A model generated the notes under the pieces. It was not told where the DNA came from. It searched no databases and was given only the letters and a program-made list of their open reading frames with translations. A DNA stretch of 64,000 nucleotides from NCBI RefSeq assembly GCF_008039615.1, contig NZ_VDUZ01000031.1, forward strand, positions 1-64,000, written 5' to 3'. The translations under genes were made by a program, and so were the position numbers. The DNA comes from Vineibacter terrae (GTDB taxonomy: Bacteria; Pseudomonadota; Alphaproteobacteria; Reyranellales; Reyranellaceae). Positions 46,213 through 49,486 of this stretch are shown piece after piece (position 1 is the stretch's first letter; each line of letters opens with the position of its first letter).

Positions 46213-47067
46213 TCAGCCGGTCACGCATGTCGCGAGCGGCGCGATGTTGCGCATCCGGCGCAGCAGCACGGGCACGCGTTTCGCCGCGTAGCCGCGGTTC
46301 GGCGACCAGTCGCGCGGGTCCGGCAGGATGGCCGCGATGCCGGCCGCCTGGCGCGCCGACAGCGCCGCGGCGCTCTTGCCGTAGTAGCGCCGCGCCGCGG
46401 CCTCGACGCCGAAGATGCCGCGGCCGGTCTCGGCGACGTTGAGGTAGAGCTCGATGATGCGCTGCTTGCCCAGCAGCAGCTCGACCACCGGCGTCCACAG
46501 CGCCTCCAGCGCCTTGCGCGGCCAGCCGCCGCCGGGCCACAGGAACAGGTTGCGGGTGAGCTGCATCGAGATCGTGCTGGCGCCGCGCAGGCGCTCGCCG
46601 GCCTGCGCGTCCTCGATGGCTTCCGCGATCGCGCCCCAGTCGAAGCCGTGATGCCGGCAGAAGCGGTTGTCCTCGGCCGCCATCACGGCCAGCGGCATCG
46701 CGTCCGGCAGCGCATCGAGCGCCACCCAGGTGCGCGACGCGCCGTCGCCCTCGAGCGCGCGGATGACCATCAGCGGCGTCGCCGGCGGCGGCACGAAGCG
46801 ATAGAGCCCGGTCAGCACCACCGGCAGCAGCAGCAGCGCGGCGAGGGCGAACGCGGCGCCGTGCAGCAGCCGCCGTGCCCACACCCGTCCGGGCGATGCC
46901 CGCGAAGCGACGGGCGTCGGCGGGGCCGTGATCGGGAAGGAGATCGGCTCTTCTTCGGCGGCTCGTGCCTCGGCATGCCCGGCCGGCTCAGGGCACTGCA
47001 TCGGGCATGCGCGAGCGGGTCGTCCACGCCGACCGCGCATCCATGCCGTGGGGAGCCATATGTTCAT
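46213..47067 (-). CDS. mtgA: Monofunctional peptidoglycan glycosyltransferase MtgA
   Basis: 284 residues from the ATG at 47067; no good ribosome site is visible, and starts about 9 or 22 codons later are possible. An N-terminal membrane helix (LLHGAAFALAALLLLPVVL) precedes the GT51 domain. This has the catalytic Glu in MAAEDNRFCRHHGFDW, GASTISMQLTRNLFLWPGGG, and KQRIIELYLNVAETGRGIFG. It polymerises lipid II in the periplasm and lacks a transpeptidase domain, as expected for MtgA. Confidence 0.92.
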   Translation of the reverse strand: MNIWLPTAWMRGRRGRPARACPMQCPEPAGHAEARAAEEEPISFPITAPPTPVASRASPGRVWARRLLHGAAFALAALLLLPVVLTGLYRFVPPPATPLMVIRALEGDGASRTWVALDALPDAMPLAVMAAEDNRFCRHHGFDWGAIAEAIEDAQAGERLRGASTISMQLTRNLFLWPGGGWPRKALEALWTPVVELLLGKQRIIELYLNVAETGRGIFGVEAAARRYYGKSAAALSARQAAGIAAILPDPRDWSPNRGYAAKRVPVLLRRMRNIAPLATCVTG

Positions 47068-47205
47068 GTCGCAGGGAAGCGTGCGCTCTGAGGGATCGAT
47101 CGCCGAGGGCCGAACGGTAGCAGTGTATAGCGTATGCAAGAAAGAGGCGAGACGGCGGCGCCGATGCCGATTGACCGACGGCCCGTCGGACCCTAGCCTC
47201 GCCCC

Positions 47206-48132
47206 ATGACCGATTCGCACATCTTCGCGCCGGATCACGACGCACCGATCGAGTACATGCGCCGCACGCGGGAGTATTACCTCGCGCTGGGCTACGACAA
47301 TCCCTATCGCTGGGCGCACTACATCGATGCGCCGTTCCAGCCGCTGGCCCGGAAGCTGGCCGACAGCACGGTGGCGCTGATCACCACCGCCGCGCCGTTC
47401 CAGCCCGACAAGGGCGACCAGGGGCCGGGCGCGGCCTACAACGCCGGCGCCAAGTTCTACACCGTCTATTCGGGCGACACGTCGGTCGACCACGACACGC
47501 GCATCGCCCATATCGGCTACGACCGCAAGCACACGACGGCGGCGGACAGCAACACCTGGTTCCCGCTGCCGCTGATGCGCCGCTTCGCCGCCGAGGGCCG
47601 CTTCAGGCTGGCGCCGCGCTTCCACGGCGCGCCCACCAACCGCAGCCAGCGGGTGACCCTGGAGACCGACGCGCCCGAGATCCTGGCGCGCTGCCGGCAG
47701 GACCAGGTCGATGCCGCGCTGCTCGTGCCGACATGACCCGTCTGCCACCAGACCGTGAGTCTGGTCGCCCGACATCTGGAACGCAACGGCATCGCCACCC
47801 TCGTTATGGGCGCTGCCAAGGACATCGTCGAGCACGCCGGCGTGCCGCGCTTGCTGTTCAGCGACTTCCCGCTGGGCAATTCCGCCGGCAAGCCGCATGA
47901 GCCCGACACCCAGGCCTTCACCCTCGACCTGGCGCTGAAGGTGCTGCAGAGCGCCGTCGGCCCCCGCACCACGGTGCAGTCGCCCCTGCGCTGGGCCGCG
48001 GACGGCGACTGGAAGCTCGACTTCTCCAACGTCGAGCGCATGAGCCCGCAGGAGGTCGCCAGGAAGCGCGCCGAGTTCGACAAGGCCAAGCAGGTGGCGC
48101 TCGGCCAGCGCAAGCAGGCCGGGGTAGGGTAG
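47206..48132 (+). CDS. GrdB/PrdB-like reductase, probable selenoprotein with in-frame TGA
   Basis: Read through one in-frame TGA (47734-47736), this is a single 308-residue protein with Sec at 177. The part before it (PIEYMRRTREYYLALGY, ALITTAAPFQPDKGDQ, LETDAPEILARCRQDQVDAALL) and the part after it (VCHQTVSLVARHLERNGIAT, AKDIVEHAGVPRLLFSDFPL) are consecutive pieces of the glycine/sarcosine/betaine/D-proline reductase component B family. Relatives I remember have C-P-V-C-H-Q at this place; here it is U-P-V-C. The frame shows no other damage, and a hairpin follows at SECIS distance. A plain nonsense mutation or sequencing error is the alternative. It is divergent from mtgA. Confidence 0.75.
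47747..47765 (+). promoter_or_regulatory. Candidate bacterial SECIS hairpin
   Basis: ACCAGAC (47747-47753) pairs perfectly with GTCTGGT (47759-47765) around the 5-base loop CGTGA. Two more pairs are possible below one mismatch. The loop begins 18 bases after the TGA and has GU at its second and third positions, as expected for bacterial SECIS elements, in which a G near the start of the apical loop contacts SelB. The Ser codon in the stem is AGT, uncommon in this GC-rich setting and needed for the pairing. Confidence 0.6.
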
Positions 48133-48163
48133 CGGCTGCCGCTGGCGGCGCTGGCAAGAGGCC

Positions 48164-48237
48164 GGGCCGCGCCGCTCCAGCGGCGCCTCTTCCACATCAC
48201 ATCGTCTGCCATGAGCGTCGCTGGAGCGACGCGGCCC
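48164..48237. repeat. Imperfect inverted repeat after the selenoprotein gene
   Basis: GGGCCGCGCCGCTCCAGCGG on the left faces GCGTCGCTGGAGCGACGCGG on the right, with two mismatches over 23 bases. The CGCTCCAGCGGCGC core resembles the GCCACTCCAGTGGCGC core of the 21879-21987 element. It could terminate the selenoprotein transcript. Confidence 0.6.
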
Positions 48238-48292: not shown

Positions 48293-49486
48293 ATGACCAA
48301 GCCTTTCACCGGCATCCGGATCCTCGACTTCACGCGGGTGCTGGCGGGACCCTACGCGTCCTATCAGCTGGCGCTGCTGGGCGCCGACGTGATCAAGGTC
48401 GAGGCGCCCGGCGGCGAGGACATGCGCTACGGCAACCGCGCCGATGACTGGGAGAAGCGCGGGCTGGCGGCGCCGTGGATGGCCGTCAACGCCAACAAGC
48501 GGTCCGTGACGCTCGACCTCAAGAAGCCGCGCGCGATCGAGGCTGTGAAGCGTCTGGCCGCCAAGGCCGATGTCGTGATGGAGAACTTCCGGCCCGGCGT
48601 GATGGACGGGCTGGGCATCGGCCACGAGGTGCTGCGCGCGATCAACCCGCGGCTGATCTACTGCGCCGTGTCGGGCTTCGGCCAGACCGGGCCGCAGCGC
48701 GCCACGGCGGCGTTCGACGGCATGATCCAGGCGATGTCCGGCCTGATGTCGATCACCGGCTTCGAGGCCAACGGACCCACGCGCGTGGGCTTCGCCGGCG
48801 CCGACGTGATGTCCGGCGCCACCGCCGCCTTCGGCGTGGCTTCGGCGCTGTTCCAGCGCAGCCATACCGGCAAGGGCCAGCTGGTCGATGTCGCCATGCT
48901 CGACGCCGTGATGGCCTACATGGCGCAGCAGGTCAGCGAGCACCTCGTCACCGGCCGCGTGCACGGCCAGAGCGCCAACCTGTCGGTCACGAAGAAGCCG
49001 ACCGGCGACCTCTACCGCACCCGGGACGGCTGGATCGTGCTGGCGGTGATGACCGAGCCGCAGTTCCGGCGTCTGATGCCGGCCCTGGGCCGCGCCGACG
49101 CGCTCGACGATCCGCGCTTCGCCGACTGGCCCGGCCGCATCGCGCATGCCAAGGATCTGCACCAGATCATCGAGGACGCGCTGATGCGCGAGACCTCGGC
49201 CGAATGGGCACGGTGCCTGGCCCAGGCCGATGCGCCGGCCGCGCCGGTGCTGGGCATCCCGCAGACGGTGCAGCTGGAGCAGCTCGCCGCGCGCGACATC
49301 CTGCAATCCATCGAGACGCCGCACGGCACGGTGCGGCTGGCCGGCTCCGGCTTCCGCCTCGAGCATGGCGGCGGCAGCGTCGAGCGCGCGCCGGCGATGG
49401 CCGGCCAGCACACCGACGAGGTCCTGGCCGAGGCCGGCTATTCCCCGGCCGACATCGCCGCGATGCGCGCCGACGGCGTGCTCTGA
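48293..49486 (+). CDS. CaiB/BaiF CoA-transferase family III protein
   Basis: 397 residues. Family III CoA transferases move CoA between carboxylates through an enzyme-bound Asp. The landmarks are TGIRILDFTRVLAGPYASYQ, KVEAPGGEDMRYG, KRSVTLDLKKP, VMENFRPGVMDGLGIG and LVDVAMLDAVMAYMAQQ. Cytoplasmic, normal length. It follows the selenoprotein gene by 160 bases with a repeat in between, so co-regulation is uncertain. The CoA donor and acceptor cannot be inferred. Confidence 0.93.
   Translation: MTKPFTGIRILDFTRVLAGPYASYQLALLGADVIKVEAPGGEDMRYGNRADDWEKRGLAAPWMAVNANKRSVTLDLKKPRAIEAVKRLAAKADVVMENFRPGVMDGLGIGHEVLRAINPRLIYCAVSGFGQTGPQRATAAFDGMIQAMSGLMSITGFEANGPTRVGFAGADVMSGATAAFGVASALFQRSHTGKGQLVDVAMLDAVMAYMAQQVSEHLVTGRVHGQSANLSVTKKPTGDLYRTRDGWIVLAVMTEPQFRRLMPALGRADALDDPRFADWPGRIAHAKDLHQIIEDALMRETSAEWARCLAQADAPAAPVLGIPQTVQLEQLAARDILQSIETPHGTVRLAGSGFRLEHGGGSVERAPAMAGQHTDEVLAEAGYSPADIAAMRADGVL

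Follow-up and report, generated by a model that had tools for sequence, protein, structure and literature searches.

An in-frame UGA probably read as selenocysteine in a GrdB/PrdB-like protein of Vineibacter terrae

Results

One frame with a single internal TGA

The window analysed here, a stretch of 64,000 nucleotides from Vineibacter terrae (contig NZ_VDUZ01000031.1), carries a putative selenoprotein gene followed on the same strand by a CoA-transferase gene (Table 1). Translated with TGA as U, the frame 47206-48132 shows exactly one in-frame stop before its end. This lone TGA (47734-47736) is residue 177 and stands in the context LLVPT-U-PVCHQTVSL. The translation thus bears out the original prediction of a 308-residue product encoded in one frame that is interrupted by a TGA alone. 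ORF calling with translation table 11 yields two ORFs at this place, 47206-47736 (176 aa) and 47755-48132 (125 aa, GTG start).

Table 1. Features of the locus, with window coordinates and the basis of each assignment
Feature	Position	Strand	Basis
Putative selenoprotein gene	47206..48132	+	Translation with TGA as U; TIGR04483 match; dN/dS on both sides of the TGA
ATG start codon	47206..47208	+	Alignment A1: relatives of at least 80% identity have M in the same column
In-frame TGA, predicted Sec177	47734..47736	+	Kept in 34/37 orthologue-grade hits; relatives with TGC/TGT in the column
Predicted redox motif U-P-V-C (Sec177, Cys180)	47734..47745	+	Columns 177, 178 and 180 of A1; AlphaFold2 model
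Predicted bacterial SECIS hairpin	47748..47764	+	Covariation; codon constraint; stem and loop in 0/87 Cys sites
Gene for a class III CoA-transferase (CaiB/BaiF type), perhaps in one operon with the selenoprotein gene	48293..49486	+	Downstream neighbour on the same strand

TGA is the terminator of 10 of the 11 neighbouring genes that were checked, so there is no general reassignment of this codon. The GC content at third positions is 0.94 before the TGA and 0.93 after it. A stop-free run of 131 codons, as present after the TGA, would arise by chance with a probability of about 8.5% at the local composition, and the open frame is therefore weak proof when taken alone; chance is excluded by conservation, that is by the dN/dS ratios on both sides and by the retention of the TGA in 34 of 37 orthologue-grade hits described below. 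An antisense ORF of 660 residues (window 46213-48195, minus strand) spans the selenoprotein gene. By eye it looks like a real gene, a transglycosylase, only outside the selenoprotein gene; the rest of it is probably an effect of the high GC content.

The best NCBIfam match is TIGR04483 (PrdB). It spans the TGA (residues 44-250, E 7.3e-22) and leaves residues 1-43 and 251-308 unmatched, and its 78 bits are far below the curated cut-off of 300. No NCBIfam model is matched above its cut-off by the window protein, and such genes therefore risk being split or mis-called. The Pfam family PF07355 (GRDB) scores 25 bits against a gathering cut-off of 22, over residues 43-176 only.

Conservation of the TGA and of the flanking halves

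Matches to the protein were found in 38 of 61 genomes, namely its own genome and 60 relatives. The orthologue-grade hits (at least 64% identity) comprise 37 hits in 36 genomes, own genome included: 34 with one TGA, and three without any stop, which bear TGC in the TGA column (G012, G016 and G029). Two other genomes of the same bacterial family, G001 (87% complete) and G033 (89% complete), contain paralogues only. The own genome has four further matches to the protein family, all with TGA, one each on contigs C15 and C49 and two on C4 (one partial). In-frame TAG codons were seen only in distant or partial members, G011:C4:47432-47737 (L093) and G107:C321 (L200), which are possibly true pseudogenes.

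Measured against 30 other orthologues (at least 79% identity), dN/dS is 0.09-0.36 upstream of the TGA and 0.13-0.36 downstream; 27 of the 31 aligned orthologues, own included, retain the TGA. The motif columns 177, 178 and 180 are invariant over the 29 rows of alignment A1, in which Sec is written as C. Among the findings that would speak against it, the original prediction had named reads with TGC or TGT at 47734-47736 and further inactivating mutations in close relatives. Recurrence in dozens of independent assemblies rules out a read error at the TGA, and no stop beyond the one TGA was found in any of the 37 orthologue-grade hits.

The two separate ORFs obtained with table 11 are also what a pseudogene would give, with the TGA as a true nonsense mutation and both halves decaying. 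We rejected this explanation, which is exceedingly improbable: dN/dS lies well under 1 on either side, the TGA is conserved in 27 of 31 aligned orthologues, and, as described in the following, the hairpin covaries and TGA forms are concentrated in genomes with selB.

A hairpin just downstream of the TGA

The predicted hairpin begins 11 nt after the TGA. It consists of a stem of 6 bp, CCAGAC (47748-47753) paired with GTCTGG (47759-47764), and the loop CGTGA (47754-47758). Bacterial SECIS elements have a G early in the loop at a spacing of roughly 16-37 nt from the UGA; here the loop G at 47755 is separated from the TGA by 18 nt, in agreement with this spacing rule. No Rfam family matched in the window at gathering thresholds, and covariation was therefore used to assess the hairpin. 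When the window was scanned for TGA followed by 16 nt and CCGTGRG, this site was the only one returned, with 0.45 sites expected by chance, so that the short pattern by itself is not significant.

For the covariation analysis each distinct 40-nt site was counted once and L180, the site from Peptoclostridium, was excluded, which reduced 84 TGA sites to 63 distinct Sec sites, far paralogues with a stem of the GCGCGC-CGTGA-GCGCGC type among them. In these 63 sites 95.5% of the stem cells are paired. Two-sided changes occur at five of the six pairs and amount to 82 cells, compared with a mean of 22.6 for the shuffles and at most 19 for slid controls. The count of further pair types (11, shuffled 11.4) was the one of five covariation measures that did not exceed the shuffles. 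RNAalifold recovered the identical six pairs.

Stem and loop occur together in 60 of the 63 Sec sites and in 0 of 87 Cys sites, the test demanding at least five pairs and one of the loops CCGTGAG, CCGTGGG or CCGTTGG (letters 20-26), which were chosen after the Sec sites had been seen. The three Sec sites failing it are L204, L208 and L227. Mean folding energies differ little (-12.1 for TGA sites, -10.5 for Cys sites) because GC-rich coding sequence folds anyway; it is the specific stem and loop alone that discriminates.

The hairpin is also reflected in codon usage. Codons 182-186, which form most of it, are each represented by one single codon in all 27 Sec orthologues, and the same is true for codon 187 in the 23 Sec orthologues that keep Val. 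The serine at position 185 is encoded by AGT in 27 of 27 Sec orthologues; AGT stands at this codon in 5 of 87 Cys sites and accounts for 7 of the 191 Ser codons of nine neighbouring genes.

The codons between the TGA and the hairpin bear on a further explanation, in which two proteins are made, translation stopping at the TGA and restarting at the GTG at 47755, where table 11 indeed places the start of an ORF. In that case PVCHQT (178-183) would be left untranslated, yet these amino acids are kept in the 27 Sec orthologues, in which the codons of Cys180 and His181 vary synonymously, and the Cys relatives hold the same residues in one unbroken frame. The restart was consequently rejected and has very little probability left.

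Exchange of selenocysteine and cysteine

A total of 137 distinct sites was compiled, 53 with TGA, 66 with TGC and 18 with TGT. That the TGA column would correspond to a conserved Cys of the homologues had been part of the original prediction, and relatives lacking the TGA do carry TGC or TGT there. The majority of the Cys sites were supplied by a contig scan whose peptide pattern demands Cys and is blind to TGA forms; the Sec/Cys ratio of the scan is therefore meaningless, and the scan served as a source of Cys homologues only. For the same reason the statement that sites without TGA always have Cys is founded on the 23 non-TGA sites from codon-blind searches, not on 84; all 23 are Cys (21 TGC, 2 TGT). 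As most Cys sites belong to other families and were picked by a Cys pattern, the Sec/Cys contrast is partly phylogenetic.

Both forms also occur at close distance. A locus from a MAG labelled REYR1 (L098) encodes a Cys form (TGT) that is 86% identical to the window protein and probably represents a recent change from Sec to Cys. In this locus and in the TGC orthologues of G012, G016 and G029, three to four of the six stem pairs are left and the loops are different; these three genomes still possess selB. In RefSeq, proteins named 'glycine/sarcosine/betaine reductase selenoprotein B family protein' on Roseomonas and Haematobacter plasmids are 64-66% identical to the window protein. They have the same frame with Cys at the Sec column, but the codon is TGC, not TGA, and stem and loop are absent.

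For a quick tree the site was masked, rows below 42% identity or with short matches were dropped, and thinning at 93% identity within each label reduced the remaining 147 rows to 102 (36 Sec, 66 Cys). The tree shows 7 state changes, of which the starred branches force at least two, compared with about 30 for shuffled labels on the same tree; 35 of its 99 inner branches are drawn open. Two MAG contigs titled Bordetella parapertussis (L109 and L154) encode proteins that group with betaproteobacterial Cys forms, and these labels look doubtful. At another locus two TGA genes stand in tandem, L090:10154-10894 and L090:9163-10044, both on the minus strand. The upstream one reads U-P-L-D-H-Q, the resolving Cys being gone and TGA and hairpin being kept; a corresponding Cys form, CPLDHQ, is present in L210.

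Readthrough of UGA occurs at a low level in bacteria, as is generally known, and a near-cognate tRNA (Trp or Cys) might thus suppress the TGA with no involvement of selenium. The Cys found at 23 of 23 codon-blind sites without TGA, the covarying hairpin and the presence of selB in TGA genomes led us to reject plain readthrough, which we regard as highly improbable.

Selenocysteine machinery

The own genome (8.76 Mb, completeness estimated by the tool at 100%) was searched for the sel genes, as the original prediction had proposed, and all four were present: selA (575 bits, cut-off 268), selB (431 bits, cut-off 242), selD (269 bits, cut-off 125) and the tRNA-Sec gene selC (75 bits, cut-off 47; anticodon tca). 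All lie on contig C5. At L081:14280-18775 selA, a Sel1-repeat-like gene, selB and the tRNA-Sec gene are consecutive; the gene between selA and selB has sub-cut-off matches only and we presume it to be Sel1-repeat-like. The tRNA-Sec gene follows about 50 nt behind selB, whereas in other Alphaproteobacteria it is nested in selB according to the available text of PMC8124441.

Within the family of the organism selB scored above the cut-off in 36 of 37 genomes; the exception, G033, contains a TGA paralogue. For a wider view 385 genomes of the class were drawn evenly, the protein family was searched at E 1e-10 and six candidates per genome were scored. The protein family was found in 51 of the 385 genomes and its TGA form in 38 of the 51. 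As many as 34 of the 38 TGA genomes have selB as opposed to 0 of the 13 family genomes without the TGA form (Fisher 5e-9, genomes of the same lineage not being independent). The four TGA genomes without selB above the cut-off are G048 (77% complete), G348 (95%), G299 (100%) and G372, the last having a partial selB hit at a contig end. Twenty genomes have selB without the protein family, as is expected if they carry other selenoproteins. Seven of the 38 TGA genomes show from 4 to at least 6 family matches.

In G299:C98 (L223) and G348:C107 (L229) the TGA form is accompanied by the hairpin; the missing selB of these two genomes may reflect a gap in the assembly, contamination or a recent loss. 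Of 398 genomes sampled from the phylum, 16 had a match at E 1e-20; TGA was found in two only, both belonging to the same bacterial family as the window.

A linked CoA-transferase

The best NCBIfam match of the downstream neighbour is succinate--glutarate CoA-transferase, below the cut-off of that model. The two genes are 160 nt apart in the window. In a first set of 20 loci a CoA-transferase was found downstream on the same strand in 14, with Sec and Cys forms alike; its identity is 70-88% in 13 loci and 34% in one, and a gap of 10-16 nt separates the two matches in 8 of the 14. Among 20 further loci it was found in four (54-55% identity), so it is missing from 6 of 20 loci of the first set and from 16 of 20 of the second. 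The few neighbours of TGA paralogues that were examined included no CoA-transferase. A CoA-transferase next to the selenoprotein gene hints at activation of the substrate to a CoA thioester.

At L063 Pfam matches on the divergent side comprise a family 5 solute-binding protein, two permeases, ABC ATPases and a 2-hydroxyacid dehydrogenase. The divergent neighbour in the window differs from this arrangement.

A second branch in sel gene clusters

A widespread group of far paralogues, about 30% identical to the window protein, has the motifs UPFC, UPAC, UPQC and similar ones. By our reading of the hit table, 29 of the sampled genomes of the class have its TGA form, which shares a contig with selB in 12 of them. 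In those 12 (L211-L222) the paralogue, selA, selB and the tRNA-Sec gene are found within about 4-18 kb, for example at L211:6532-7155; a UP-x-C PrdB-like selenoprotein is thus often part of the sel gene cluster. In the own genome the far paralogue and selB are on different contigs. This paralogue may be the most informative relative as far as function is concerned.

Predicted structure

AlphaFold2, supplied with 29 rows in which Sec was written as C, returned a model with a mean pLDDT of 87.3. The model places residue 177 between a strand (170-174) and a helix (178-193). Such strand-to-helix spots are common for redox nucleophiles. A search of the PDB with the single sequence gave one match (E 0.76). 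The best hit of a profile search (E 0.0002) was to a brief segment of a designed protein, which we regard as chance. With Foldseek nothing matched at an E of 0.001 or below. VIA-align 2 matched many folds of the Rossmann and LacI kind, with Z of 6.6-9.1 among the 50 matches listed; these reflect a common alpha/beta arrangement and indicate no function. None of the solved structures was thus a clear match.

Relation to PrdB and GrdB

With PrdB (TIGR04483) the window protein has in common a core of about 200 residues and the UxxC motif. The site of the Peptoclostridium PrdB is U-G-T-C-H-R as against U-P-V-C-H-Q in the window, and the hairpin stem and loop of the window family are not seen there. 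The match to GrdB/GrdF/GrdH (TIGR01917, TIGR01918, NF040794, NF040795, PF07355) concerns the C-terminal half of models of 431-435 residues; the profile is aligned from position 219 on, and no match extends into the N-terminal half (about 215 residues). Scores of 35 bits (cut-off 65.45) and 30.7 bits (cut-off 602.2) for TIGR01918/TIGR01917 are below the NCBIfam cut-offs.

The partner subunits were searched for as well. PF09338 (GrdE/PrdA) was found in 0 of 41 genomes, own included, so no PrdA-type pyruvoyl subunit and no GrdE turned up in the own genome; this result was used only after three hits had been obtained in a Peptoclostridium plasmid record as a positive control. GrdA (PF04723) was found in 0 of 6 genomes, own included, with one hit in the Peptoclostridium control record. 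Since the curated scores are missed and the partners were not found, the protein falls outside both PrdB and GrdB. The designation as a GrdB/PrdB-like reductase in the original prediction is accordingly sound as a resemblance but not as a membership.

Discussion

From the comparative evidence UGA 177 is almost certainly decoded as selenocysteine. The sel genes, the conserved TGA, the exchange with Cys and the covarying hairpin all support the selenoprotein reading that was originally put forward. The product is very probably a GrdB/PrdB-like redox enzyme that works without partner subunits. To the explanation as a whole we assign a probability of about 0.9.

Glycine and D-proline reductases depend on a pyruvoyl partner, and their Sec attacks an activated carbon. 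In the mechanism that we propose for the window protein, SelB and tRNA-Sec would deliver Sec at UGA 177, the signal being the hairpin immediately downstream of that codon. Distantly related to PrdB and, within GrdB, to the C-terminal half, the product would be a single-chain alpha/beta enzyme whose Sec-Pro-Val-Cys redox pair stands where a helix begins. The selenolate of Sec177 might attack the activated carbon of a small substrate and displace a leaving group, and Cys180 might then resolve the selenium-carbon adduct, giving the reduced product and an Se-S bond, which would be reduced by a cellular thiol system. Unlike in glycine and D-proline reductases, no pyruvoyl subunit GrdE/PrdA would be needed. 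The substrate-cleaving chemistry of Sec177 and Cys180 is drawn from analogy with these reductases and is offered tentatively, at somewhat less than even odds.

Alternatively, Sec is decoded as described and the protein acts as a general thiol/selenol-disulfide oxidoreductase or a peroxide-linked reductase, with UPVC used in a thioredoxin-like manner. The position of UxxC at a helix start in the AlphaFold2 model and the negative searches for GrdE/PrdA and GrdA would fit such a function, and in the available parts of a 2026 review UxxC is given as a motif of many redox selenoproteins. The relatives of the family, however, are substrate-binding reductase subunits. The neighbouring CoA-transferase and, at L063, the ABC importer and the 2-hydroxyacid dehydrogenase point to the metabolism of a specific compound, and the occurrence of up to at least six matches per genome suggests several substrates. 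We therefore consider a general oxidoreductase unlikely, though worth keeping in mind beside the partnerless substrate reductase.

Proteins of this general kind have been reported before. In the parts accessible to us, the 2026 review describes the subunits of these reductases and lists UxxC as the PrdB motif, the Sargasso Sea study (PMC1088965) reports 42 genes for a 'proline reductase PrdB' that contains Sec in UxxC, the GOS study (PMC2398784) has 235 UxxC sequences under pfam07355, and in a 2016 survey selenoproteins number 131 for proline reductase and 261 for GrdB. The marine 'PrdB' selenoproteins share the loose label and the UxxC motif with the window protein, a likeness by description, as given in PMC1088965 and PMC2398784. 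For Synergistota, the accessible text of one report proposes fluoroacetate reduction by a GrdB-like protein with predicted Sec and a GrdE-like partner, which suggests that other leaving groups are open to the family. In the open PMC literature, to which our search was confined, we found no paper on a partnerless GrdB/PrdB-like selenoprotein of Alphaproteobacteria. As far as searched, the claim of a new selenoprotein accordingly holds for this partnerless alphaproteobacterial branch, which looks new, and not for the kind, UxxC PrdB-like selenoproteins being already described in the available parts of PMC1088965 and PMC2398784.

On a broader scale one might speculate that an unnamed and widespread set of alphaproteobacterial selenoenzymes exists, with several copies in a genome, carrying out selenol chemistry of the GrdB/PrdB type without a pyruvoyl subunit, the branch of the window acting on CoA-activated substrates and the paralogue of the sel clusters perhaps serving selenium metabolism. 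We hold this to be rather improbable at present.

The accessible text of a 2006 survey (PMC1794560) gives FdhA as the sole selenoprotein of the Alphaproteobacteria sequenced by then, as against TGA forms of the present family now found in 38 of 385 alphaproteobacterial genomes. The occurrence of Sec and Cys orthologues in one bacterial family, with selB retained in the genomes of the TGC forms, would permit a direct comparison of what selenium buys. The partnerless branch together with the linked CoA-transferase offers a concrete and testable pathway.
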